From Opitutus sp. GAS368 (GTDB taxonomy: Bacteria; Verrucomicrobiota; Verrucomicrobiia; Opitutales; Opitutaceae), in the NCBI GenBank assembly GCA_945862035.1, contig CAMAXB010000002.1:1-35058 (forward strand): a stretch of 35,058 nucleotides of DNA. The letters are read 5' to 3'. Position numbers and translations under genes: made by a program. The notes below the pieces were generated by a model. It was not told where the DNA came from and made no database searches. It worked only from the letters and a program-made list of their open reading frames with translations. Shown here piece by piece: positions 4,616 through 22,137 of this stretch; position 1 is the first letter of the stretch, and every line of letters begins with the position of its first letter.

Positions 4616-5287
4616 ATGCTGTTCCGTCTGGTCCGTACCAGCCTTCTGTTGGCCTTATTCGCCGGCGCCGGGTTTGCCGCCGAGACCGCCCCGGCGCCGA
4701 CGGTTTTTGCGTTGGCCGAACTCGATGAGGCCCCGGTCGTTTCCGCCCAGGTTTCTCCGACGTACCCACCCAATCTCAAGGCTTTGCGCGTGCCCGATGC
4801 GGTGACGCTCATCTTCGTGGTCGACGCGACGGGCGCGGTGCGCGACGTGCAGGTGGTCGAGCCCGGCCAGCCCGACTGCGATGCGGCGGCGGTGGCGGCG
4901 GTCTCGCGCTGGGTGTACCAACCGGGCCGCAAGGCCGGCCAGCCTGTCGCGGTGCGAATGCAGCAGAGGGTCGCGTTTGGCTTCGATGACTCGGCGCTTT
5001 TTGATGTCGACCAGCTCGATCGTGCCCCGATGGTGCGTTACCAGGCCAAGCCCGAGTACCCGCCCGATCTCCGTCGGCGCGGCATCGGCGGCGAGGTGAT
5101 CGTCGAGCTCATCGTCGACGAGCGCGGCATCGCCCGCCGCGTGAAGGCCGTCAGCGCCCCCCATACCGCCCTCGGGGAAGCGGCGGAGAATGCGATCGGC
5201 CAGTGGACCTTTTTTCCCGGTATGAAAGCCGGCCGCGCCGTCGCCACCCGCCTCGCCGTCCCCGTCATGTTCGGCGCTAGACCGTAG
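4616..5287 (+). CDS. Secreted protein with two TonB C-terminal-like domains
   Basis: Signal peptide; two YPPxLxxxxxxGxVxxxxxVDxxGxxxxVxVxx...A...W.F.PgxkaGxPV repeats. Confidence 0.82.
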   Translation: MLFRLVRTSLLLALFAGAGFAAETAPAPTVFALAELDEAPVVSAQVSPTYPPNLKALRVPDAVTLIFVVDATGAVRDVQVVEPGQPDCDAAAVAAVSRWVYQPGRKAGQPVAVRMQQRVAFGFDDSALFDVDQLDRAPMVRYQAKPEYPPDLRRRGIGGEVIVELIVDERGIARRVKAVSAPHTALGEAAENAIGQWTFFPGMKAGRAVATRLAVPVMFGARP

Positions 5288-5384
5288 TGGGTCGAAGAAA
5301 CCTGAGACCTGAGACCTAAAACCGGAGTTGCCAGAGGGGCAAAAAATCCGCCGCGGCGGACGCCCGACATCCGATCAAGGTGGT

Positions 5385-5430
5385 GGGAGCATCCTGCTCC
5401 CGTTGTTCGGATCGGGGGCTGGAAGCCCCC
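5385..5430. repeat. Tandem REP-like hairpins with trinucleotide loops
   Basis: GGGAGCA-TCC-TGCTCCC (5385-5401) and GGGGGCT-GGA-AGCCCCC (5414-5430), perfect arms. Confidence 0.6.
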
Positions 5431-5537
5431 GCCACTTTAAGCAGGGATTCAGGAACTCAGGGCTCGCGTTTCAGGTTTCCTAATCCGCGCTTCCCCGCAC
5501 GGTTGACCCGGCGGGGCGGGGGGAGTGCAGTGGCGGC

Positions 5538-5999
5538 ATGAAGGTCATGTTCACCCCCAAGGAGTACGCCAAGCTGCTGGAGCTGGTTCATCTGGGTCTG
5601 CACGCCGTCGCGGGTCGGCAGGGCTTCGACCCACCCGCGGCGCAACGCTATGCCGAGCTCGAGCAAAAGCTGTTCGAACTCGCCACGCCCCTCGGCTGCG
5701 CGGCTCTCGTCACGATCGGGAGCGATGGCCGCCTCGCGCCGTCGGACCAGCTGCTCGACGACAAGCGGCTCCAGAAAACCCAGTCCGAGTACGACAATGA
5801 CACGTTCTGGCACGAGCTGGTGACGCGCCTCGCCGACCGCGACCTCGCCGCCGAGCAGGCCAAGCAATCGCTCGCGGACACCGGGGCCCCGGCAATCGAC
5901 GCCGATGCGCGGCTGCGTCAGATCGAGGACGTGTACTGGGACGAGTTTGAGAAAAATGACCTCGCGAATGTGCTCTTGCTGCGCGGCGGCCGCGGATGA
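5538..5999 (+). CDS. Hypothetical protein
   Basis: 153-aa ORF with ATG start; no family recognised. Confidence 0.6.
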   Translation: MKVMFTPKEYAKLLELVHLGLHAVAGRQGFDPPAAQRYAELEQKLFELATPLGCAALVTIGSDGRLAPSDQLLDDKRLQKTQSEYDNDTFWHELVTRLADRDLAAEQAKQSLADTGAPAIDADARLRQIEDVYWDEFEKNDLANVLLLRGGRG

Positions 6000-6020
6000 C
6001 GGTAACGAACCTCGATCCGT

Positions 6021-6188
6021 TTTTACCACGGATGGACACGGATTCACACGGATACGAACCGAACAATCGGTAAAGGGCCTGGACTCCACGGCAGTCTGCT
6101 CGTGCTGCTGAAACCGTGTGAATCCGTGGTTAAAAAACTCCGTTCATCAATCATCAGTCGGGTCTTTTCGTGTCCATTCGTGGTTAAT
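6021..6188. repeat. Inverted-repeat element of ACCACGGATGGACACGGATTCACACGG type
   Basis: CGGATTCACACGG-type arm at 6021-6052 against CCGTGTGAATCCGTGGTTAAAA at 6114-6135 and GTGTCCATTCGTGGTTAA at 6171-6188. Confidence 0.55.
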
Positions 6189-6248
6189 CCGTTTGGGGCC
6201 CGCGGCCGGTTGACCTTCGGCGGCTTCATTGCACGCTGGTGCATCCCC

Positions 6249-7340
6249 ATGACGTCGCCGCTCCTGCGTCTCGCGCTGTGTCTGTTTTCCCTGGCGTGCC
6301 TGTCGATTCCCGATGCCCGTGCGGCGGTGGCCTCCAAAGATCGACCAGCCCAGCTTTTCCGTCAGCGGCCCCCGATCCATCCGGATTCGATCGCCAACTT
6401 CCGCGTGCGGGGTGAGGTCAGGGTCACGTTCGACGTCGGTGCGGATGGGACGGTTTCAAATGTCCGCGCGGGCTATGCCACGCACCCTGACTTTATCGCG
6501 CCGGCCATTGCCGCGGTGCTGGAGTGGCGCTACCGGCCGGCCTTGCGGGACGGCCAGCCCGTTCCGATGTATGACCAGAAGGCGAACGTGATTTCCGATG
6601 TCGTGGTGCTGGGTGGGCCCGCGTTCTCGATTCCGCCGCGCGGCTCCGACTTGCTGCCCCCGGCGTTCCGCTATGATGAGCCGCCGTCGATCAGGATAAT
6701 GATGCCGGTGGTGTACCCCTACGAGATTCTGGCCGGCGGCCTGCCCGGGCGGGCGAGCGTGGCGTTTGCGGTCGGACCGGATGGGCGCGTCGAGGACGTT
6801 TCGGTGGTGCGCGCCACGCATCCCGATTTTGGCGAGGCGCTGGCGGCCGCGATGGAGTCATGGGAGTTCGAACCGGCGCGCTACGCCGGCCAGCCCTTCG
6901 CGGCGCTGCTGGCCCGGTCCCTCGATTTTAATCCGGAGGGAAAGGACATGCCCGTCAACGAGACCACGCGCCGACTCCTTTTTGAGAGCCGCAAGCCGAA
7001 TCCTGTATTTGTCGACGTGGCGGACCTGGATGAAATGCCGGCCACGCGCTTCGGCGCAACGCCCCGCTACCCGGGCCGCATGGGTGGCGAGGCGGGCCGA
7101 GCCGAGATCGAGTTCATCATCGACCGCACGGGCCGCGTGCACCTCCCACGCATCGTCTCCGCGTCGGCGCCACCCTTCGGCTGGGCCGCGGTGACGGCGG
7201 CGGCCCAGTGGGAATTCTCCCCTCCGCGCAAGGGAGGCCAGCCGGTCGATGCGCGGATGCGCGTGCCCGTCGATTTTCCGGCCCAGCCGCGCTCCACCCT
7301 CACCGTGATTCCCGCCGCTCCGATCGCGCCGGCGCCCTGA
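6249..7340 (+). CDS. Secreted protein with three TonB C-terminal-like domains
   Basis: Signal peptide after Met at 6249; three repeats with YP...G.A.V.F.V...G.V..........FG.A...A...W.F.PA. Confidence 0.8.
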   Translation: MTSPLLRLALCLFSLACLSIPDARAAVASKDRPAQLFRQRPPIHPDSIANFRVRGEVRVTFDVGADGTVSNVRAGYATHPDFIAPAIAAVLEWRYRPALRDGQPVPMYDQKANVISDVVVLGGPAFSIPPRGSDLLPPAFRYDEPPSIRIMMPVVYPYEILAGGLPGRASVAFAVGPDGRVEDVSVVRATHPDFGEALAAAMESWEFEPARYAGQPFAALLARSLDFNPEGKDMPVNETTRRLLFESRKPNPVFVDVADLDEMPATRFGATPRYPGRMGGEAGRAEIEFIIDRTGRVHLPRIVSASAPPFGWAAVTAAAQWEFSPPRKGGQPVDARMRVPVDFPAQPRSTLTVIPAAPIAPAP

Positions 7341-7449
7341 GCGCTGGCGCGCCGGGAGCGTCGGCGGCGAGGAAGCGGAATCCGCGCGCAGGCCGATTCT
7401 CGCGCGCTCGCCCGTTGACCTTTGGCCGAAGGCGTGCACCGTTGGCGGC

Positions 7450-8580
7450 GTGATGCCGCTCGTGTTGCGTTGCGTGCCCCTGCTCTTGGTTGCCGCGCTG
7501 GCGGCCCCGGCCCTGTCGGCGCAGTCCAAGGCCGCCGCCGCTCCTGCCAACCGCGAGGCTGTCCCGTTTCAGCAGAGCCGCCCCGCCTATCCCGAGTCGC
7601 TCCGTACCTATCGAATCCGTGGTGAGGTCCGGCTCGCCTACGACATCGACGCGGAGGGGTATGTGCAGAATCTGCGCGCCACGTATGCGACGCACCCCGA
7701 TTTCCTGCAGCCCGCCCTCGACGTGGCGAAGGGCTGGCGCTTCCGCCCCGCCCGCAAGGACGGAAAGCCGGTGTCCTCAAGTCGCGAGGAGTCGGTCTTC
7801 ACCGACGTTCTCACCCCGGGCTTGGAGGCCTTCGAAATTCCTGCCGTGGCGGTCAAGGACCTGCCGGAATCCCTGCGTTATGACCGGCCGCCGTCGATTC
7901 GCACGCTGGTGCCGGTGGTCTATCCTTATGAGCAATTGCTCGCGAACAAGCGCGGCGCGGCGCAGGTGGCGTTGATCATCGCCCCGGACGGATTGACGCG
8001 TGAGCTCCGGGTGCGCGCCGCCTCGGAACCTGCCTTCGGCCTGGCGCTGGCGGCGGCGATGGAGGCCTGGGAGTTCGAACCGGCGGTCAAGAACGGCGCG
8101 CCCAGCGGTGCGATCCTGACCCGGGGCCAGGAGTTCAAGGTGGATGGTGAAGACCGGCTGGTCAGCGACGGCACCCGCCGGCTGCTGCGGATCCTTTCCT
8201 CCGAAAATCCCGCCATTGTTGATCTCTCCGCGCTCGACGCCTCACCCGAGCCACTGGAGCGCGTTCCGCCGGTGTTTCCGCAGAAGCATGCCGGCAAGGA
8301 TGGCACCACGGAAGTTGAATTCATCATCGATCGCGAGGGCGTGGTCCACCTGCCTCGTATTGTGTCGGCCAGCGAGCCGGAGTTTGGCTGGTCCGCCGCC
8401 ACGGCCGTGGTCCGCTGGAGATTCGCGCCGCCCATCAAGGCGGGGGAGCCGGTGGACGCGCGGGTGCGCGTGCAACTTGATTTTCGTGCCGCCGAACCGG
8501 CGCCGGCGGCCGAAACCCCGCCGACCCCGACCGACCCTTCCTCCCCGGCGCCGGCGGCCGGGTCCCCACCCCCGGCCTGA
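7450..8580 (+). CDS. Secreted protein with three TonB C-terminal-like domains, paralogue of 6249..7340
   Basis: SLRYDRPPSIRTLVPVVYPYEQLLA matches AFRYDEPPSIRIMMPVVYPYEILA of the neighbour; same three-repeat layout. Confidence 0.82.
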   Translation: MMPLVLRCVPLLLVAALAAPALSAQSKAAAAPANREAVPFQQSRPAYPESLRTYRIRGEVRLAYDIDAEGYVQNLRATYATHPDFLQPALDVAKGWRFRPARKDGKPVSSSREESVFTDVLTPGLEAFEIPAVAVKDLPESLRYDRPPSIRTLVPVVYPYEQLLANKRGAAQVALIIAPDGLTRELRVRAASEPAFGLALAAAMEAWEFEPAVKNGAPSGAILTRGQEFKVDGEDRLVSDGTRRLLRILSSENPAIVDLSALDASPEPLERVPPVFPQKHAGKDGTTEVEFIIDREGVVHLPRIVSASEPEFGWSAATAVVRWRFAPPIKAGEPVDARVRVQLDFRAAEPAPAAETPPTPTDPSSPAPAAGSPPPA

Positions 8581-9301: not shown

Positions 9302-10255
9302 TCAGCGCACCCGGCTGCCGTACTGGTTGGAGACCGCGAGGGTGGAGAAGTGGGCGAAGGCGATCCGGGCGACATCGGCTACGGGCGACGCGTTTTCCGG
9401 CAGGTACACGGCCATGACACTCAGCACGAAGGGACGGTTCGCCAGTAGCACGATGCCGGTCTGGCATTGGACGCCGCGCACGGAACCGGGCTTGGAGGCG
9501 ATCGGCACTTCGCGCGGAATGCCGCCGCGAAAGCCGCCCCCTGCGAGCTGCCATCCGTCCGCATCCGGCAGCTTGAGGATCTCAATCATCGCCGTACTAT
9601 CGGGAAACCGCTCCCGGTGGATCATTTCCGCCAACTGGGCCATCTCCCGCGGCGTCGAGATGTTCTCGATGTTTCTGCGGGCCGCGCCGGTCGCATCGAG
9701 CATGACGCGCTGCAGCCGGGTATTCGGCAGACCCAAGGACGCCATCAGGGCATTCACCCGTTCCATGCCAACCAGCGCGATGAGCTTGTTGGTCGCGGTA
9801 TTATCGCTGTGCTGGATCATGGCCTCCAAAAGGGCCCGCACGGTCACGGACACCGGCCCCTTGTCGATCTGCTCGTTGAGCCGACCCGATCCCCGGGCGA
9901 CATCGGCCTCGGTCAGCGTGACGTTTGTGTCCAAGCTGAGCTCGCCCGCACGGGCGGCGCGGAACAATTCTACCATGATGGGAATCTTGATCGAACTGGC
10001 CTGAGCAAAGGGAACGTCGGCGTTGATGGCCAGCACCTGTCCGCTGGTGAGGTCGATGGCCATGACCCCCAGCACGCCACCGAAGGTCGCGCCATAATCC
10101 TCCAGTTGTGCCTGGGTCTTCTGCGCGAGCACATCGGACGGGGTGGCTTGGGCCCGGAGGCCGGTCGTCGCGAGGACCAGGCCGCCTACGGCTGCAACGA
10201 CCCGGAACTTGGCGAGCAGGCGGGACGGCGGGGAGAGGGAATGAGACAGTTTCAT
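9302..10255 (-). CDS. Class-A beta-lactamase-fold serine hydrolase, periplasmic
   Basis: Signal peptide (ends LRAQA); SSIK (SxxK), SDN, and KPGS (KTG box) motifs. Confidence 0.85.
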   Translation of the reverse strand: MKLSHSLSPPSRLLAKFRVVAAVGGLVLATTGLRAQATPSDVLAQKTQAQLEDYGATFGGVLGVMAIDLTSGQVLAINADVPFAQASSIKIPIMVELFRAARAGELSLDTNVTLTEADVARGSGRLNEQIDKGPVSVTVRALLEAMIQHSDNTATNKLIALVGMERVNALMASLGLPNTRLQRVMLDATGAARRNIENISTPREMAQLAEMIHRERFPDSTAMIEILKLPDADGWQLAGGGFRGGIPREVPIASKPGSVRGVQCQTGIVLLANRPFVLSVMAVYLPENASPVADVARIAFAHFSTLAVSNQYGSRVR

Positions 10256-10321
10256 GAGCGGAGAGGTGGCGGGAAGGCCAAGGGGTCACGCAAATAGGGG
10301 GCAACGAAGACAGGTTTGCTT

Positions 10322-10337
10322 AGCAAGCGTCGTTCCT
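10322..10337 (-). promoter_or_regulatory. Candidate sigma-54 promoter for the beta-lactamase-fold gene
   Basis: Minus strand AGGAACG-ACGC-TTGCT against TGGCACG-N4-TTGCW (10/12); GG and GC at correct spacing. Confidence 0.45.
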
Positions 10338-10436
10338 AGGGTATCGGTTCACTGAGATTTGGCAGAAAGTCTCACGGTGTGAGGACAAGGGATAATAAAT
10401 GACTTCATTTTGCGATGCTCCTCGGCGCCTCAGGCG

Positions 10437-10473
10437 GTTGCCTTTAAGGCAACCGTTGTTGCTCACCGACAAC
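10437..10473 (+). promoter_or_regulatory. Candidate EBP upstream activating sequence, double dyad
   Basis: GTTGCC-TTTAA-GGCAAC-CGTT-GTTGCT-CACC-GACAAC; first dyad extends to the perfect palindrome GGTTGCCTTTAAGGCAACC. Confidence 0.75.
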
Positions 10474-10504
10474 GACAAAATTGCCTCCTCCCGTAACGTT
10501 TAAG

Positions 10505-10520
10505 TGGCATGCTCAATGCT
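10505..10520 (+). promoter_or_regulatory. Candidate sigma-54 promoter of the TonB-dependent receptor gene
   Basis: TGGCATG-CTCA-ATGCT, 10/12 to TGGCACG-N4-TTGCW; about 45 nt predicted leader to ATG 10576. Confidence 0.75.
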
Positions 10521-10575
10521 CCATCGAAAAGTGTACCCCGGTATTGTTTGATAATTCAGTAAAAACCAACACCAC

Positions 10576-13500
10576 ATGCATCGCCAAGATCAGGATTCAG
10601 TTTGTCGCCGCTGGGCACGAAAAATCTGCCTAGCGACGGTCGCAATGGGATCCCTCGGCACGGGCCTTTGGGCCCAGGTCGCTCCCCAACCCGCCAGCCC
10701 CGCCGCCCGTCCGAGTACGGGCACCGAAGACGTCATCGAGATGGAGGCCTTCTCCGTCACGGGTTCTAACGTTAAGCGCATGGACCAGGAAAATGTCCTG
10801 CCGGTCACGGTGATGAGCCGCGATGCGATGGACGTGCGCAATGCGCTGACGCCGGTCGATATGCTCACGGCCCTGCCGCAGGTCACGGGTGTGCCGGCGA
10901 ACGAATCACGCTCGGCCTCGGCCGGTGCGCGTGGTGACAACGCCAACATCAACATGCGCGGCCTCGGCACGAATGCCTCGCTCGTCCTGCTGAACGGCCG
11001 GCGCCTTGCCCCGCATCCGATGACGGGCGACCTCGTCGTGAATGTGAATCAGCTGCCCAACCAGGGTATCAGCCAGATTGAGGTGCTGCGCGACGGCGCC
11101 TCCTCGCTCTACGGCTCCGACGCCATTGCCGGGGTCGTGAACTACATCATGCGGACTGATTATCGCGGGGTGCAGATCAAGACCCGTTACGCGACGCCGG
11201 AAGAGCCGGGCGGCTCCCAGCTCCAGGGAACGATCACCTATGGGGCCGACTTCCTCGACGGCCGCCTGCGCTACCTCACGAACTTCGATGTCTTTTTCCG
11301 CGAGGAGCTGTGGCTCCACCAGCGCGAGCAGGGGCGCTTTGCCGACAACTCCTACCGGGCCCCCGCGCCCTTCAACGGGGCGGCAGGTCCCTTCAACTCC
11401 GCGGCAGTTGTTGGTCGCTGGCCCACCTTCCGGGTCGGCACGGCCACGGCCACCAATTATTTCCGTCCGGTCAGCGGCACGCCAACCCTAACCACGGTGG
11501 CGCCGACCCGCGCGGCCAATCCGGAGTACTACAACAACCTGAACGCCTACTCGATGGCGTCCCCCCGCACGCGGCGCATCAACTGGTTCAATCGCGTCGA
11601 GTATGACTTCACCGACACGATCACCGCGTTTGCCGACATCTCACTCTATAAGGCGGACTCCGTCACGATCCGCCAGCCGATCAGCATGAACGCGCCGACC
11701 AGTGACGCGTTTGCGGTCATGTCGGAAAACAATCCCTTCAACCCGTATGGCTCGCGCTTCTTCCACGTCACCGGCGCACCGAATACGGATGGCACCGCCC
11801 GCCTGGTGGGTGCGCCGCGCTCGATTTCCATGCAGGCCCAGCAGATTCAGGATCTCCCGGGTGACCGCATGGAAGTCTCTGCCGGAACCTATCGCTTCGT
11901 GGGCGGCCTCATGGGCAAGCTCACCGACACGTGGTCATGGGAGACGGGTGCCCTTTACACGCAGGTTTACGCGGCCGACCGCGCGCCCTTCAATGTGCGC
12001 GAGAGTCTCTACCACGCGGCGTTGGGTCGCACCGCCATCCCCGGACCAAACGACAACCGCTTCGCGGCTGAGGCCGGCGCGTTCAATCCGTTTGGCTACA
12101 CCTTCAAGGTTCAGAACGGCGCGGTGGTGGCCGACCAGCCCTATGTCAACCCCCAGGGCGTGATGAACACCTTCGTCGATCGCTGGCGCCAGGATGGCCG
12201 CACCGAAGTGGCGAGCCTCGATGCCCGCGCCTCCGGTCGTCTCTTCACGATGTGGGCCGGCGACATCAATGTCGCGATCGGCGGCGAGTACCGAACCGAG
12301 TACTTCCGCTGGGTCCGTCCTTACAATGTGAGCACGCGCAATGACTTCTATGTGTCTTCGCCAATTCCGGACAACACGGGCGACCGTACCGTCACCAGCT
12401 TCTACTCCGAACTGGTGATTCCACTGGTCGCGCCCCAGAACAACATCCCGCTGGCCAATTCCCTCGAGCTGTCCGCCTCGGCCCGTTATGAGAGCTACGA
12501 TGACTTTGGGAACACCACCCGGCCCAAGGTCGGCCTGAACTGGAAGCCGCTGCCCAACATCATGGTCCGCAGTTCCTACAACGAGGGCTTCACTGCTCCC
12601 AGCCTCGCGGATCTCTACTCGCCGCCGTCCTCCACCATCGGCTCGGTCGCGACGCAGATCGACACCTACCGCAATGTCGCGACGAGCGAAGGCGCGTACG
12701 TGACGCTCGCCATCACCTCCGGCAATCCGAACCTGCAGCCGGCCGAGTCCGAGGGCAAGAGCGCGGGCATCGTGATTGATGTGCCATGGGTCCCCGGCCT
12801 CACGCTCACCGCCGACTATTGGGAGATTGATCAGATCGGTCAGGTCGGCTCGCGCAGTGTCTCCCAGCTCTACATCAGCGATGATGTGCTGCTGAAGGCC
12901 TATGTCGCGCAGCAGATCGCCGCGGGCGTCCCGGTCATGTCCATCGACACCGCTAGTGGCACCGCGAACTACCGCGGCGACGTCGGCATCCAGCGCTTTG
13001 CGGCAAATGCCGAGGACGTCGCGCTCTTCGCCGCGTGGAATGCCGCCAATCCCGGCAACCCCCGCGCGGTCGTCGGTCGCGTTCGCGCCACCAACTCGCC
13101 CATCGGCAATCTGGTCTCTGCCACCGCCTCCGGCTGGGATTTCGGCGCAAGCTATAATCTGCCCGAATTGAGCATCGGCCGCCTGTCCTTCACCACGGAC
13201 TGGAGCTACCTGGTCGACTCCTTCTCGACCAACTCGGCGGGGCTCAAACCGGTCATCTCCCTGCGCAAGGGCGTAGGCAGCAACGCCGAGTGGCGGGGCA
13301 ATGGCACCGCGAGCTGGCGCAAGGACAACTGGACGGTGGGCCTGAGCGCCTACTACATCGGCGACTACACCATCGCCAATGTCACCACGACCCAGGCGCT
13401 CTACGAGTCACTCGGTCGGCCCGATTACATCCGCCCGCAGTTCACCGATGGCAACACGCTCTACCGCTACGTCGTGGAGGAAACGCTGTCGTTCAACGGC

Positions 13501-13689
13501 TTTGTTACCTACCGCTTCGGCCGCGGCGCGGATCGCTTCTGGCTGCCGACCTCCGTCCGCCTCGGCGTGTCCAATCTTACCGATGAGGAGCCGCCGCTCT
13601 CCAACGGCAACTTCGGCTATGATCCCGGCGTGCATGCGAATCTCTTCGCCGGCCGCACCTGGAGCATCGAGCTGAACAAGGAGTTCTAA
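10576..13689 (+). CDS. TonB-dependent outer-membrane receptor
   Basis: Signal peptide; plug domain (NINMRGLGTNASLVLLNGRRLAP, EVLRDGASSLYGSDAIAGVVNYIM); C-terminal beta-signal (TWSIELNKEF). Confidence 0.95.
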   Translation: MHRQDQDSVCRRWARKICLATVAMGSLGTGLWAQVAPQPASPAARPSTGTEDVIEMEAFSVTGSNVKRMDQENVLPVTVMSRDAMDVRNALTPVDMLTALPQVTGVPANESRSASAGARGDNANINMRGLGTNASLVLLNGRRLAPHPMTGDLVVNVNQLPNQGISQIEVLRDGASSLYGSDAIAGVVNYIMRTDYRGVQIKTRYATPEEPGGSQLQGTITYGADFLDGRLRYLTNFDVFFREELWLHQREQGRFADNSYRAPAPFNGAAGPFNSAAVVGRWPTFRVGTATATNYFRPVSGTPTLTTVAPTRAANPEYYNNLNAYSMASPRTRRINWFNRVEYDFTDTITAFADISLYKADSVTIRQPISMNAPTSDAFAVMSENNPFNPYGSRFFHVTGAPNTDGTARLVGAPRSISMQAQQIQDLPGDRMEVSAGTYRFVGGLMGKLTDTWSWETGALYTQVYAADRAPFNVRESLYHAALGRTAIPGPNDNRFAAEAGAFNPFGYTFKVQNGAVVADQPYVNPQGVMNTFVDRWRQDGRTEVASLDARASGRLFTMWAGDINVAIGGEYRTEYFRWVRPYNVSTRNDFYVSSPIPDNTGDRTVTSFYSELVIPLVAPQNNIPLANSLELSASARYESYDDFGNTTRPKVGLNWKPLPNIMVRSSYNEGFTAPSLADLYSPPSSTIGSVATQIDTYRNVATSEGAYVTLAITSGNPNLQPAESEGKSAGIVIDVPWVPGLTLTADYWEIDQIGQVGSRSVSQLYISDDVLLKAYVAQQIAAGVPVMSIDTASGTANYRGDVGIQRFAANAEDVALFAAWNAANPGNPRAVVGRVRATNSPIGNLVSATASGWDFGASYNLPELSIGRLSFTTDWSYLVDSFSTNSAGLKPVISLRKGVGSNAEWRGNGTASWRKDNWTVGLSAYYIGDYTIANVTTTQALYESLGRPDYIRPQFTDGNTLYRYVVEETLSFNGFVTYRFGRGADRFWLPTSVRLGVSNLTDEEPPLSNGNFGYDPGVHANLFAGRTWSIELNKEF

Positions 13690-14967: not shown

Positions 14968-15978
14968 TCAGACGGCGGGCGACGGGTTGCTCCAGGCCGG
15001 GGCCGCGAGCTCGGTCACGAGCCGGATGCCGGCCGGGGCGGTGATCAGACGGGGCACGATATTGATCAGCGCAGCCACCGTGGCGTCGTCACCGGCGACG
15101 CCGCCGTTGAGCGTGAGATGAAGGTTGGGCCGTCCGCGGATGACAATCGTGTCGTGGGGATTGGGCTCCCCGAGCGCCATGGTCAGGTCGAGCACGATCT
15201 TGGCCTCGTCGCCGACCATGCCGATGGCACGCTGGTGGAGACCGCGCGTCTGCCCAGGGGCGACATCGAAGAAGGTGGTCTTGATCCGAGCGTCGGCCAC
15301 GACGGGCTCGCACATCTCGGTGATGGCATCGAGTTTCCACCCCATCGCCTTGGCGAGGAGCGCGAGGGACTGCTGGAAGCCGGCGTGGCCGGCCTTGCCG
15401 GCCTTGAAGGCGGCGCGGAATTCCTCGGGCGGGCGGGCGCTGCCGATCTTAGCCTGGAGCGGACCGCGGCGGGTGGACGCATCCACGACGCGTTCGACGT
15501 AGATCGAGTTCACCTGGCGACTGACGCCGGTGAGGACGATCGGGAGCAGGTCCATGACGAATCCAGGATTGACGCCGGTGGCGACCACGCGGGCGCCGGA
15601 CTTGCGGCAGAGCGCATCGTACTCGGCGGCGATTTCCGGTGTCTTGAGTTGAGGGAAGATCAGCTCCTCGCAGGTCGAGGCGACGCTGATGCCGCGCTCA
15701 AGCGCCGGACGGACCTGCGCAAGGGAGGCGGCCGCGCTGGAGGAGGCGGTGTGGAGGATCACGTCGGGCGTCACGGCCTTGAGTAGCTCGTCCATCGAGG
15801 CGTGGACTTTGCCGGCAACGGTGGCATTGCCGGTGACGTCGGCCATGGAGCGGCCGGCTTTGTCGGGGGCGACATCGACGCCACCGACGATTTCGATCCA
15901 TCCTTGGGTGGCGGCGAGGGCGATCGATTCGAGACCGATTGGACCGAGGCCGAATTGGGCGACTTTGATTTTCTTCAT
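14968..15978 (-). CDS. DapB/2,4-diaminopentanoate dehydrogenase-like NAD(P)-dependent oxidoreductase
   Basis: N-terminal Rossmann FGLGPIG; PDVILHTASSSAAA, STCEELIFP, GVNPGFVMDLLPIVLT as in ORD-like proteins. Confidence 0.75.
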   Translation of the reverse strand: MKKIKVAQFGLGPIGLESIALAATQGWIEIVGGVDVAPDKAGRSMADVTGNATVAGKVHASMDELLKAVTPDVILHTASSSAAASLAQVRPALERGISVASTCEELIFPQLKTPEIAAEYDALCRKSGARVVATGVNPGFVMDLLPIVLTGVSRQVNSIYVERVVDASTRRGPLQAKIGSARPPEEFRAAFKAGKAGHAGFQQSLALLAKAMGWKLDAITEMCEPVVADARIKTTFFDVAPGQTRGLHQRAIGMVGDEAKIVLDLTMALGEPNPHDTIVIRGRPNLHLTLNGGVAGDDATVAALINIVPRLITAPAGIRLVTELAAPAWSNPSPAV

Positions 15979-16001: not shown

Positions 16002-16017
16002 TGCACTTATGATGCCA
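16002..16017 (-). promoter_or_regulatory. Candidate sigma-54 promoter of the dehydrogenase gene
   Basis: Minus strand TGGCATC-ATAA-GTGCA, GG and GC correctly spaced, 9/12 to consensus. Confidence 0.6.
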
Positions 16018-16061: not shown

Positions 16062-16108
16062 GTTGCCGTACGGCAACCAGCGGTTAGCCCGCGTTGCTGT
16101 AGCGCAAC
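16062..16108 (-). promoter_or_regulatory. Candidate EBP binding dyads upstream of the dehydrogenase gene
   Basis: GTTGCC-GTAC-GGCAAC (16062-16077) inside the perfect palindrome GGTTGCCGTACGGCAACC; second dyad GTTGCT-GTAG-CGCAAC (16093-16108) within the EBP 3' end. Confidence 0.55.
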
Positions 16109-17472
16109 GGGTCGAGCTGGTGACGCCGCACCAGCCGGAAGTAGTGCGAGCGGTCGATGCCCGCGAGGCGGGCGGCGGCTGCCATATTGCCGCGGGCGAG
16201 GCGCAGGCCCTGCTCGAGGTAACGCCGCTCGAAGGCCGCTTTGGCCTCGGCATAGGTGCCGGTGAGGTTGGCGGGCGCGGGCGGGACGTCGCCGGCCCGA
16301 CTAGTCTCGCGCAGGATGCGCTCCGGAAGATCGGCGACGTCGATCCATTCGCGGTCGTGGAGGACGGCGAAGCGCTCAACCAGATGCTCGAGCTCACGGA
16401 CGTTGCCGGGCCAGCCGTAGACCTTGAGGCGGTGGACCGCGTCGGACGTGAAGCCGACGAGGGGGGACCGCGTATTGCGGTAGCGGCGGAGGAAGTGGTC
16501 GATCAGCAGACTGATGTCCACCGGCCGTTTGCGCAGCGGCGGCAGGGTCAGCGAGATCACGTGCAGGCGGTAGAAGAGATCGGTGCGGAAACGTCCCGCC
16601 TCGATTTCCTTTTGCAGGTCGCGGTTGGTCGCGGCGATCACGCGGGCGTGCGATTGCAGGGTCTCGGTGCCACCCACGCGGTTGAACTTGCCGCTCTGCA
16701 GCACGCGCAGGAGCTTGGACTGCAGGGGGTAGCTCATCTCGCCGATCTCATCGAGGAAGAGCGTGCCGGCGCCCGCCTCCTCAAAGCGGCCGACCCGCTG
16801 GTCCGTGGCGCCGGTGAATGCGCCGCGATCGTGCCCAAAGAGTTCGCTCTCGAGTAGGTTCTCCGGGATCGCCGCGCAGTTAATTTCGACGAAGGGCTGG
16901 TTGTGCCGCGGGCTGCGCAGGTGCAGGGCCTGTGCCACCAGCTGCTTGCCGGTACCCGTCTCGCCCAAAATCAGCACGCGGCTGTCGCTGCGGGCCACGG
17001 CCTCAATCGTATCAAAGACCGCCTTCATCGCCGGATCCTCGGAAATCATGCCCTCGCGCCGCACCTCCGCCTGGCCATCCGGCTCCTGCTCGCGGCTGAT
17101 CAACTTGGCCAGGCGGGCCAGCAGTTCCTCCGGCACAACCGGTTTCTCCAGATAGTCGGAAACGCCCAGCCGGGTCGCCTCAATCGCCGTCTTTTCATTG
17201 CCGTGGCTGGTGATCATCACGATCGGGATTCGGCTGCCCTGACCCCGCAGGCGGCGGATCAGCTCGAATCCTCCCATCTCCCTAATCACCAGCGTCGTGA
17301 TCACCAAGTCATACGCCTGCTTCTTCACCATGCGGAGCGCCCGCAGCGGGCTGCCGCAAATCACGGCGGCGCGGCAATGGGGCTTCAGCAGAGCTCGCAC
17401 CTCCTGACAAAACACGGGGATATCGTCGACGATCAGAATGCGGGCCGAGGCGAGGGCGGCATAGGGATTCAC
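16084..17472 (-). CDS. Sigma-54-dependent NtrC-family regulator (receiver + AAA+ + Fis-type HTH), receiver lacking phospho-Asp
   Basis: Walker A GETGTGKQ, GAFTGA sigma-54 contact loop, VGRFEEAGAGTLFLDEIGEM, C-terminal NMAAAARLAGIDRSHYFRLVRRHQ; GTG start at 17472. Confidence 0.95.
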   Translation of the reverse strand: MNPYAALASARILIVDDIPVFCQEVRALLKPHCRAAVICGSPLRALRMVKKQAYDLVITTLVIREMGGFELIRRLRGQGSRIPIVMITSHGNEKTAIEATRLGVSDYLEKPVVPEELLARLAKLISREQEPDGQAEVRREGMISEDPAMKAVFDTIEAVARSDSRVLILGETGTGKQLVAQALHLRSPRHNQPFVEINCAAIPENLLESELFGHDRGAFTGATDQRVGRFEEAGAGTLFLDEIGEMSYPLQSKLLRVLQSGKFNRVGGTETLQSHARVIAATNRDLQKEIEAGRFRTDLFYRLHVISLTLPPLRKRPVDISLLIDHFLRRYRNTRSPLVGFTSDAVHRLKVYGWPGNVRELEHLVERFAVLHDREWIDVADLPERILRETSRAGDVPPAPANLTGTYAEAKAAFERRYLEQGLRLARGNMAAAARLAGIDRSHYFRLVRRHQLDPLRYSNAG

Positions 17473-17509
17473 GTTGTTGATAAGACAACACTAGTTGTTT
17501 CAGGGCAAC
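17473..17509 (+). promoter_or_regulatory. Candidate EBP upstream activating sequence, double dyad
   Basis: GTTGTT-GATAA-GACAAC-ACTA-GTTGTT-TCAG-GGCAAC; same layout as 10437-10473; abuts the EBP start codon. Confidence 0.75.
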
Positions 17510-17540
17510 TTTAAAAAGCGCTCTTCCCGTTGTTTGTCAC

Positions 17541-17556
17541 TGGCATGATGACTGCT
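17541..17556 (+). promoter_or_regulatory. Candidate sigma-54 promoter of the gltS operon
   Basis: TGGCATG-ATGA-CTGCT, 10/12 to consensus; 68 bp from UAS start, as upstream of the TonB receptor. Confidence 0.75.
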
Positions 17557-17613: not shown

Positions 17614-18882
17614 GTGACACTTTCCGCCTGGTACCTGTTGTTGTTGGCCGTGCCCGTGCTCCTCGCCGGCGAAGCCGTCTGTCGGCGCGTGCCGGTTCTG
17701 GCGCGCTTCAACATCCCGGCGCCGGTCGTCGGAGGGCTGGGCACCAGCCTGCTCGTGCTCGCGCTGTCGTTTGCCGGGGTCACGATCTCGTTCTCGTCGC
17801 GCACGGACGCGGCGTGGTGGACCTGGCTGGTCACGCCGGAGATCGAGTGGCTCACGCGGCCGCAGAAGGCGGTGAACCTGCCGCTGCTGATCGCCTTCTT
17901 CACCTGCGTTGGACTGAACTCGACGTGGCGCATCGTCAGGTCCGGCAGCTGGCAGCTCCTGCTCTTCTGGGGCCTTGCGACGGTGCTGGCGGTCGGCCAG
18001 AGCTTCACCGGTGTCGCGTTGGCGAACGTTCTCGGCGTTGATTCGTTACTCGGCCTGATCTGCGGCAGCGTGTCCATGACCGGGGGCCATGGCACCGCGC
18101 TGGGCTTCGCCGACACGATCAAGCAGGCTGGCTACGCCGAGGCCGCCACGGCGGGCGCGGCGGCGGCGACCTTTGGCTTGGTGGCCGGTGGGCTGCTCGG
18201 CGGGCCGATCGGCACGCGGCTGATCCAGCGCTTCCAGCTTCCCGTCCCGGGTGCGGCGCGGGCGTCGTCAGCCGGCTCGTCTTCCGCTGGTGGCATCCTC
18301 ACCGATATCGGCCGCCTGGCCGGCACGGGTCGCAGTGCGGTGGTGCATCTGCTGATTCTCGCCGGCTGCATCAAGGTCGGCGCGTGGGTCTCCTACTTCC
18401 TGCAATCCCTCGGGATCGTGTTTCCCGCCTACATGGGGGCTTTGCTCGTGGGCGTCGCCCTGCGGAATTTTCTCGATGCCACCGGCCGCCCGTGGATCCG
18501 CAGCGAGGTGGTGGACCTGATCGGCGCGGTCGCACTGGGTCTCTTCCTGGCGATGGCCATGGCCAGCCTCAATCTGCGCGAACTCGCCGGTGCCGCTGGC
18601 CCAATGCTTATCATCCTCGTGGCTCAGGTCACGCTCACCGCGCTGTTCGCCTGGTGGGTCACCTTCAGACTGCTCGGCCGCGACTACGATGCGGCCGTCA
18701 TGGCGGGTGGTCACTGCGGCTTCGCGCTCGGTGCCACACCCAATGCCGTGGCCAACATGGACGCCCTTGCGCGGCGCTACGGCCCCGCGCCCCGCGCCTA
18801 CACCGTTGTTCCGCCCGTGGGAGCCTTCCTCATCGATTTCACCAACGCCCTCACGATCACGGCTTTCCTTAACTTTCTCTGA
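17614..18882 (+). CDS. gltS: Sodium:glutamate symporter, GltS family
   Basis: GSVSMTGGHGTALGFA, AAATFGLVAGGLLGGPIGTRLI, DYDAAVMAGGHCGFALGATPNAVANMDAL resemble E. coli GltS. Confidence 0.9.
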   Translation: MTLSAWYLLLLAVPVLLAGEAVCRRVPVLARFNIPAPVVGGLGTSLLVLALSFAGVTISFSSRTDAAWWTWLVTPEIEWLTRPQKAVNLPLLIAFFTCVGLNSTWRIVRSGSWQLLLFWGLATVLAVGQSFTGVALANVLGVDSLLGLICGSVSMTGGHGTALGFADTIKQAGYAEAATAGAAAATFGLVAGGLLGGPIGTRLIQRFQLPVPGAARASSAGSSSAGGILTDIGRLAGTGRSAVVHLLILAGCIKVGAWVSYFLQSLGIVFPAYMGALLVGVALRNFLDATGRPWIRSEVVDLIGAVALGLFLAMAMASLNLRELAGAAGPMLIILVAQVTLTALFAWWVTFRLLGRDYDAAVMAGGHCGFALGATPNAVANMDALARRYGPAPRAYTVVPPVGAFLIDFTNALTITAFLNFL

Positions 18883-18933: not shown

Positions 18934-20523
18934 ATGACAACCTCGTTCATCCCGCGCCTCCTCCGCTTTGCGCTCGTGGCGCTCGCCGGTCCCGTAGCCC
19001 TGCTCGCTCAGTACGACATCCTCATCCGGGGTGGCCGCGTCCTTGATGGCTCCGCCAGCCCCTGGCGCCATGCGGACATTGCGATCACCGGTGATCGCAT
19101 CATGGAGGTCGGCTTCATTCCGACCACCGCCACCGCCAAGCGCGTGATCAACGCTGCCGGCAAGTACGTGACCCCCGGTTTCATCGATGCGCACTCCCAC
19201 GTCGCTCCGGAGATCGGAACCGAAAAGGGCGCGCCCGCCATCCCCATGCTCCTGCAGGGTGTCACCACCGCGATGATCAATCCCGACGGCGGCGGGCCGG
19301 CCGATCTCAAGCCGCAGCTGGACGCCATCCGCACGCAGCGCCCGGGGCTCAACATCGTGCCGATGATCGGTCACAACGGGGTCCGCAGCACGGTCATGGG
19401 CATGGAAAACCGGGCGCCCACCCCGGAGGAACTCCAGCAGATGAAGGACTACGTCCGAGGCGCCATGCAGCTGGGCGCCTTCGGCTTCTCCAGCGGCCCG
19501 TTCTACACCCCCGGAAAATTTTCCACGACCGATGAGCTCGTCGCCCTCGCCCGTGTTGCCAATGAGACGCCGGGCGCATTCCACATCAGTCACGTTCGCG
19601 ACGAGGCCTCCTACGATGTCGGCGTGGTTGAGGCCGTGAACGAGTTGATCGAGGTCTCCCGCCAGACAGGCATCATCGGTGTCGCCACCCACATCAAGTG
19701 CATCGGTCCGACGGTGTGGGGCAAGTCCGCCGACATCATCGCGAACATCAACAAGGCCCGGGCCGAGGGGCTCTCAATCTGGTCCGACCAGTACGCCTAC
19801 GCCGCCTCCAGCACCGGTCTCCAGGCCGCGCTAGTCCCTGGCTGGGCCCAGGAGGGCGGCCCGACCGCACTCCGCACCCGCCTCGCCAACCCCGAGCAGC
19901 GCGCGACGATCCGGCTCGAGATGGTCGACAACCTCGCCCGCCGCGCCGGCGCCAATGCCGTCATGATCGCGAGCCACGCCGCCGACCGGAAGCTGGAGGG
20001 CAAGCGCCTCGACGAGATCGCGCGCGAGCGTTTGCAGGACCCGGTCGACACCGCCATCGACATCCTCATGGCGGGCGGCGCCTCGATCGTCTCGTTCAAC
20101 ATGAACGAGACCGATCTCGAGGCCTTCATGAAGCAGCCGTGGAACATGACCTGCAGCGACGGCGGCCTGCCCGAGTTTGGCGTCGGCGCCGGTCACCCGC
20201 GCAGCTACGGCGCCTTCTCGCGCAAGATCCGCCGCTACGTCGTCGAGCGGGGCGCCATTTCCCTGGAGCATGCCATCCATACCTCCACCGGCCTCACCGC
20301 CGGCGTGTTCGGCATCAAGGACCGCGGCGTCCTCGTCCGTGGCGCCTATGCCGACATCCTCGTCTTCGATCTCGCCACGGTCACCGATCTCGCGACCTAC
20401 GAGCAGCCCCACGCCTATTCGACCGGCATGGACTTCATTCTCATCAACGGTCAGGTCGCCGTGGCCGACGGCAAGGTGACGCCCGAGCGCCACGGCCGCG
20501 TCCTCCTCCGCCACCAACAATAA
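18934..20523 (+). CDS. Periplasmic N-acyl-D-amino-acid deacylase (D-aminoacylase) family amidohydrolase
   Basis: Signal peptide; DILIRGGRVLDGSASPWRHADIAITGDRI, VTPGFIDAHSH metal motif, FGFSSGPFYTPGKFSTTDEL, FHISHVRDE. Confidence 0.9.
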   Translation: MTTSFIPRLLRFALVALAGPVALLAQYDILIRGGRVLDGSASPWRHADIAITGDRIMEVGFIPTTATAKRVINAAGKYVTPGFIDAHSHVAPEIGTEKGAPAIPMLLQGVTTAMINPDGGGPADLKPQLDAIRTQRPGLNIVPMIGHNGVRSTVMGMENRAPTPEELQQMKDYVRGAMQLGAFGFSSGPFYTPGKFSTTDELVALARVANETPGAFHISHVRDEASYDVGVVEAVNELIEVSRQTGIIGVATHIKCIGPTVWGKSADIIANINKARAEGLSIWSDQYAYAASSTGLQAALVPGWAQEGGPTALRTRLANPEQRATIRLEMVDNLARRAGANAVMIASHAADRKLEGKRLDEIARERLQDPVDTAIDILMAGGASIVSFNMNETDLEAFMKQPWNMTCSDGGLPEFGVGAGHPRSYGAFSRKIRRYVVERGAISLEHAIHTSTGLTAGVFGIKDRGVLVRGAYADILVFDLATVTDLATYEQPHAYSTGMDFILINGQVAVADGKVTPERHGRVLLRHQQ

Positions 20524-20547: not shown

Positions 20548-22137
20548 ATGAAGACCCGTTCTCTCCGCCTCTCCGGGTTCGCGCTGCTAGCCTGCGCCGC
20601 CGCCTCAACCCTCGCCGCCCAGTCCTACGATGTCCTCATCCGCGGTGGCCGTGTGATCGACGGCACCGGCAGCCCCTGGCGCTACGCCGATGTCGCCATT
20701 AAGGGCGACCGCATCGTCGAGGTCGGCCCGATTCCCGCCGAAGCCACCGCCACCCGCGTGATCGATGCGCGCAACCGCTAGGTCACCCCGGGCTTCATCG
20801 ACCCGCACTCGCATGCGATGCCTGGGCTCACCACGGCCGAACTCGCGGGCGCTCCGCCCATCCTCTACCAGGGCATTACCACCGTGCTGATCAATCCGGA
20901 CGGCGGCGGGCCGGCCGATCTCGAGGACCAGCTCCGGCCCACGCGCCAGCATGGGCCGGGCGTCAACGTCGCGCCCATGATCGGCCACAATGGCGTGCGC
21001 TCGACCGTCATGGGCCTCGAGGACCGCCTGCCGACTCCGGACGAGCTCGAGCAGATGAAGACCTACGTGCGAAAGGCGATGGAGCTCGGCGCCTTTGGCT
21101 TCTCCAGCGGTCCGTTCTACATCCCGGGCAAGTACTCCAAGACCGACGAGATTGTCACGCTCGCGAAGGTCGCGGCCGAATTCCCCGAGACGTTTCACAT
21201 CAGCCACATTCGCGACGAGTCCAGCTACGACATTGGCGTGGTCGCCGCGGTCAACGAGCTGATTGAGATCTCCCGGCAGGCCAAGATCCCGGGCATTGTC
21301 ACCCATATCAAGGGCATCGGACCCACCGTCTGGGGCAAGTCGGCCGAGGTCATCGCCAATATCAACAAGGCCCGCGCCGAGGGCCTCGAGATCTGGGCGG
21401 ACCAGTATCCGTACTCCGCCTCCGGCTCGAGCCTCCAGGCCTCGCTCGTCCCGGGCTGGGCGCAGGAGGGCGGCCAGCAGGCCATCGCCACTCGCCTCTC
21501 CAATCCCGAGCAGCGCGCGACGATCCGGATCGAGATGTTGGAGAATCTCGCCCGCCGCGCCGGCGCGAACGCCATCATGATCCGCCGCCACGCAGCCAAT
21601 CCGAAGCTGGAGGGCCGCCGTCTCGATGAGATCGCCCGCGAGCGGCTGCAGGAGCCGATCGACACCGCGATTGACATGCTCATCGCCGGCGGCGCCGCGA
21701 TCGTCTCCTTCAACATGAACGAGAGCGACGTCGAGGCCTACATGCGCCAGCCGTGGAACATGACCTGCACCGACGGCGGGCTCGTCACGTTTGGCTCCGG
21801 GGCCGAGCACCCGCGCGCCTACGGCGCCTTCCCGCGCAAGATCCGCCGCTACGCCCTCGACCGCGGCGCGATCACGCTGGAACACGCGATCCACACCTCC
21901 ACCGGCCTCACCGCCGGCGTGCTCAACATCCAGGACCGTGGCGTGCTGCGCCCGGGCGCCTATGCCGATGTCGTCGTGTTCAATCCGGAAACCATCAACG
22001 ACCCCGCCGCCTACGACGCGCCGCATGCGTACTCGACCGGCATGGACTACGTGCTGGTCAACGGGAAGTTCGCCCTCGCCGAGGGCAAGGTGCTCCCGGA
22101 ACGGCACGGCCGCGTGCTGCTCCGGCATCAGCAGTAG
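20548..22137 (+). pseudogene. Second D-aminoacylase-family amidohydrolase, interrupted by in-frame TAG
   Basis: 77-aa ORF ends at TAG 20779-20781 (IDARNR*VTPGFIDPHSH); same frame continues to 22137, closely similar to 18934..20523. Confidence 0.88.

Follow-up and report, generated by a model that had tools for sequence, protein, structure and literature searches.

The window, meaning the whole 35,058-nucleotide stretch of DNA analysed here, carries paired inverted repeats and a putative sigma-54 promoter ahead of a TonB-dependent receptor gene, raising the question of whether 10437-10520 is a control module and, if so, to what system it belongs. The original prediction read the repeats as GTTGCC-N5-GGCAAC-N4-GTTGCT-N4-GACAAC at 10437-10473 with a promoter element at 10505-10520, and this reading is exact; the perfect 19-bp palindrome that it described lies at 10436-10454 and encloses the distal dyad. 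The two dyads, separated by the spacer CGTT, are 21 bp apart start-to-start and lie 31 bp from the TGG of the predicted -24/-12 element, with the proximal dyad centred 39 bp from that TGG. Within the element, GG and GC are 10 bp apart, as the sigma-54 promoter class demands; the -12 region reads ATGCT, not TTGCT, in a general context that is TGGCAC-N5-TTGC-like. Transcription is predicted to start at ~10531, upstream of the ATG at 10576. No sigma-70-like promoter was found in 10250-10620, and a search for RNA elements gave no Rfam match at the dyads. The short distance between UAS and promoter, initially considered unusual, is ordinary: the largest class of sigma-54 promoters in Desulfovibrio lies at most 100 nt from the nearest site of an enhancer-binding protein (EBP) (PMC4641369). 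A weak -24/-12-like sequence, AGGAACGACGCTTGCT, is also present on the minus strand (10322-10337) before a divergent class A beta-lactamase-like gene (9302-10255) and does not rise above chance.

We consider it likely (probability about 0.86), judging from sequence and conservation, that 10437-10520 is the control module of the TonB-dependent receptor within a compact local sigma-54 regulon comprising an EBP, tandem dyads, and three promoters (Table 1). The window contains three such modules, a correction to the original prediction, and together they surround a single EBP gene. The first faces the receptor, the second (17473-17556, plus strand) faces gltS and two D-aminoacylase-type genes, and the third (16108-16002, minus strand) faces a dehydrogenase gene of the Ord type. 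The gltS module repeats the layout of the receptor module in its dyad spacing, its distance to TGG, and the position of its proximal centre.

Table 1. Predicted regulatory elements and associated genes at the EBP locus.
Feature	Position	Strand	Basis or remark
Distal dyad of TonB-receptor UAS, GTTGCC-N5-GGCAAC (GTTGCC-TTTAA-GGCAAC), GTTGCCTTTAAGGCAAC	10437-10453	+	Read from sequence
Proximal dyad of TonB-receptor UAS, GTTGCT-N4-GACAAC (GTTGCT-CACC-GACAAC), GTTGCTCACCGACAAC	10458-10473	+	
Predicted sigma-54 -24/-12 element of receptor promoter, TGGCATGCTCAATGCT	10505-10520	+	TGGCAT-N6-TGCW enrichment
TonB-dependent receptor, plug and beta-barrel	10576-13689	+	Pfam PF07715, PF00593
Dehydrogenase of 2,4-diaminopentanoate dehydrogenase (Ord) type	14968-15978	-	PF19328; NF040740 at 226.9 bits, under its cutoff of 400
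Predicted -24/-12 element for Ord-like gene, TGGCATCATAAGTGCA	16002-16017	-	
Proximal dyad of Ord module, GTTGCCGTACGGCAAC	16062-16077	-	Centre 52 bp from TGG
Distal dyad of Ord module, GTTGCGCTACAGCAAC	16093-16108	-	Within 3' end of EBP gene
Sigma-54 EBP: aspartate-less receiver, AAA+ with GAFTGA, Fis-type HTH	16084-17472	-	PF00158, PF00072, PF02954
Distal dyad of gltS module, GTTGTTGATAAGACAAC	17473-17489	+	Abuts GTG start of EBP gene
Proximal dyad of gltS module, GTTGTTTCAGGGCAAC	17494-17509	+	
Predicted -24/-12 element for gltS, TGGCATGATGACTGCT	17541-17556	+	Also kept in orthologous loci
Sodium/glutamate symporter GltS	17614-18882	+	TIGR00210, over cutoff
D-aminoacylase-type amidohydrolase	18934-20523	+	Nearest solved sequences: N-acyl-D-glutamate deacylase 3gip, D-aminoacylase 1m7j
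Second D-aminoacylase-type gene	20548-22137	+	In-frame TAG at 20779-20781

Both D-aminoacylase-type genes have individual features. Compared with 3gip, the first protein keeps the first His motif (DAHSH) and has lost the Cys of the GNCG stretch, so that its substrate is a guess; its metal site may be of a variant type. In the second gene, the TAG could be either a nonsense mutation or an assembly error; the frame is otherwise intact, and two intact paralogues exist in the genome.

The rarity of the motif was assessed in the window and across the genome. Exact GTTGY-N5..8-RCAAC dyads occur six times in the 35-kb window compared to 0.17 in shuffles, and these six form exactly the three tandem pairs. 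TGGCAT-N6-TGCW occurs three times (0.12 in shuffles), and each copy follows one tandem pair, at 31, 31, or 44 bp, in the right orientation. Random frequency, the outcome against which the original prediction had been set, was not seen genome-wide: the tandem-dyad pattern is confined to three places in the 2.85-Mb assembly (331 contigs, 86% complete), all beside the EBP gene (control, 0), and a looser combination of dyad and -24/-12 element recovers those sites and no others (control, 1). When one mismatch is tolerated, single dyads show no genome-wide enrichment (15, versus 25 in the control). Specificity resides in the pairing plus the promoter, not in the single dyad, and the double dyad with a -24/-12 element is far above chance.

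The EBP encoded between the modules has a Sigma54_activat AAA+ domain (E 7.7e-71) with an intact RGAFTGA, which is GSFTGA in the relative L181. Its Fis-type C-terminal HTH scores 23.4 bits against a cutoff of 22, and the HTH stretch GNMAAAAR..DRSHYFRLVRR is conserved in the orthologue alignment. At the phospho-Asp position of the receiver, Thr is found (Gly in L187 and L188), and none of the 16 orthologues, the window's own included, has Asp. The EBP thus lacks the phosphorylatable residue expected of a two-component response regulator, and classical phosphorylation is therefore unlikely; activation probably proceeds by another route, the probable signal being a ligand or a partner rather than a kinase. 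In L175 (1238-3777), a receiver-histidine kinase gene immediately precedes the gene of an EBP orthologue in which the phospho-Asp is also absent, and a VPDSG-CTERM protein is encoded on the opposite side.

Neither the two family models used nor the protein of one relative found rpoN in the 86%-complete assembly, although the RpoN Pfam model matches 18 of 18 relatives tested. This absence is probably an assembly gap. A menG/ubiE-like gene precedes rpoN in three relatives; the copy in this genome (C167:689-1378, minus strand) is followed by the end of the contig ~690 bp past the gene, and the corresponding interval in L189 is ~1.5 kb, longer than the sequence left on C167.

Conservation was examined in 252 genomes of the family, which yielded 15 EBP orthologues with 62-77% identity from five genera besides that of the window. 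Tandem dyads near the EBP start, 21-22 bp start-to-start, are present in 13 of the 15 orthologous loci as well as in the window. The relatives' dyads are of the class GTKGNC-N5-GNCMAC, and their rarity per locus corresponds to P of at most 0.003 (300 shuffles) under a motif score picked after the sites had been seen. An Ord-like gene adjoins the EBP gene in 11 of 15 loci, with gltS or a deacylase gene opposite in most. TGGCAY-N6-TGC lies upstream of the Ord-like gene in every one of the 11 orthologous loci that hold it and at seven promoters of gltS or deacylase genes in orthologous loci. In most relatives, as in the window Ord promoter, the proximal dyad is centred 50.5-52.5 bp from TGG; several relatives' Ord promoters have no dyad within 140 bp or one imperfect dyad only. 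As befits a UAS, the site recurs at the predicted target promoters and nowhere else, and it accompanies the EBP gene from genome to genome. The exceptions are L175 and L176, the two closest EBP orthologues, which sit in a different neighbourhood with neither dyads nor the neighbour genes of the window locus. The exact tandem pattern has no match in the 251 other genomes of the family since dyads in those genomes have drifted to GTKGNC, and these forms were found only once the EBP orthologues had been located. Searching named genomes for the EBP returned relatives at 35-49% only and no orthologue; an earlier search of 38 relatives was likewise without an orthologue, apparently because few genomes had been drawn per genus. 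In two loci, the EBP orthologue and a divergent gene are separated by a TPP riboswitch that lies beside the tandem dyads (L187, 4683-4795; L188, 11550-11662); in L187, the divergent gene encodes a TonB receptor.

The predicted sigma-54 module before the receptor is supported by its gltS-like layout, the nearby EBP gene, the genome-wide confinement of the pattern, and the conservation of its EBP/gltS counterpart in orthologous loci. The copy at 10437 is private to this genome: of the 29 receptor homologues that match best, not one is preceded by tandem dyads. The receptor itself is a member of a large family of paralogues, two more of which are encoded in this genome. These observations would suit a scenario in which only the EBP/gltS and Ord sites work and the receptor module is decayed or recently copied and without effect. 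Although this alternative survives best, we regard it as very unlikely, given that the genome's best dyad sits here, that its spacings are exactly those of the gltS module, and that four relatives have TonB-receptor genes immediately after regulated genes. In these relatives (L155, L180, L181, and L182), the deacylase gene is followed by TonB-receptor genes in the same orientation, which would fit a single operon. The window's receptor gene lies beyond the EBP gene, on the opposite flank, with its own module, and we infer that it entered the regulon by acquiring the module at 10437. In two receptor homologues from other genera (L199 and L200), near-canonical -24/-12 elements (TGGCACCGTTTTTGCT and TGGCACGTTCCTTGCA) are located ~180-250 bp upstream of the receptor match without the dyads described here, and sigma-54 control of this receptor type may recur. 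Just upstream of the receptor locus (4616-8580, plus strand), three successive proteins each carry the TonB_C domain in two or three copies, a repeated arrangement that is unusual among proteins of the TonB type.

A palindrome this long would equally fit an operator of the LacI, GntR, or TetR type. The dyads might accordingly serve an ordinary repressor or activator of a sigma-70 promoter, with the -24/-12 matches being coincidental. This reading ranks next and is likewise highly improbable: the enriched element always follows a tandem pair, similar elements precede the same genes in relatives, the receptor upstream region (10250-10620) yielded no sigma-70-like promoter, and the gene amid the sites encodes an EBP. 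Least probable of all is that the EBP acts on the dyads mainly as a repressor of sigma-70 transcription, as dyads abutting the EBP start and the aspartate-less receivers of regulators under indirect or ligand control (e.g., FleQ; PMC12632262) might suggest, whereas -24/-12 elements conserved at fixed distance and the intact GAFTGA of the window EBP point to activation; repression at the EBP's own promoter could coexist with activation.

In the favored reading, a local sigma-54 regulon, the EBP (16084-17472) would bind tandem dyads of the class GTTGCC-N4/5-GRCAAC, whose centres are ~21 bp apart and therefore on one face of the helix. From the proximal site, whose centre precedes the -24 element by ~39 or 52 bp, it would remodel sigma-54 polymerase and activate the promoters of the receptor, the gltS/D-aminoacylase operon, and the Ord-like dehydrogenase. 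Autoregulation of the EBP gene is also probable, since the dyads at 17473-17509 abut its start. Because GltS, the deacylases, and the receptor fit together, the regulon would most likely serve to take up and deacylate compounds that are N-acylated or contain D-amino acids. The putative substrate and signal follow from family resemblance, and EBP binding, sigma-54 dependence, and autoregulation are predicted from sequence.

Among known systems, AauR/RpoN of Pseudomonas acidic-amino-acid uptake (PMC7962211) is the nearest functional analogue found, pairing an EBP with a Fis-type HTH, two palindromic sites upstream of -24/-12, and an amino-acid uptake target. However, the AauR site is TTCGG-N4-CCGAA, AauR belongs to the AauSR two-component system, and its main target is the AatJQMP uptake system, whereas the window targets are a TonB receptor, GltS, and deacylases; a receiver without Asp is a trait of the window EBP, unlike AauR. 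DguR of Pseudomonas, initially taken for a sigma-54 EBP, was rejected as a comparator, being treated as a LysR-type regulator in PMC10926688. Local EBP regulons of Desulfovibrio similarly comprise mostly one to four operons, in which EBP sites and promoter are most often no more than 100 nt apart, but they belong to another phylum, and the GTTGC string is absent from the text searched (PMC4641369). Aspartate-less or pseudo-receivers are already known (PMC4395418, PMC12632262). FleQ is among them, an EBP-type regulator with a receiver fold that lacks the phosphorylatable Asp; FleQ responds to c-di-GMP with FleN. A link of sigma-54 to TonB-type uptake has also been predicted in Flavobacteriia (PMC12316311), where it is unconfirmed and concerns TonB itself, in contrast to the receptor with a nearby EBP and predicted sites described here. 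No counterpart in Verrucomicrobiota or with a GTTGCC-class site is described in the literature searched, which covered a minority of subscription journals.

The locus would represent a new sigma-54 regulon of a familiar type, with three switches and a predicted binding site undescribed before. A bolder interpretation, which we hold tentatively and at somewhat short of even odds, is a distinct, undescribed EBP subfamily that needs no kinase: its aspartate-less receiver would respond to a D-amino-acid or acyl-peptide signal, and the EBP would turn on the chain for its own uptake, beginning with the outer-membrane receptor and ending with cytoplasmic catabolism, via helically phased tandem dyads; TonB receptors would join within an operon or via a private copy of the module. 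Regulator, predicted binding site, promoters, and targets together form a testable sigma-54 regulon. No EBP regulon turned up for this lineage in the literature searched, and sigma-54 would here be tied to a TonB receptor in the outer membrane. That the receiver Asp is consistently missing makes the locus a natural system for exploring how an EBP is switched without phosphorylation.
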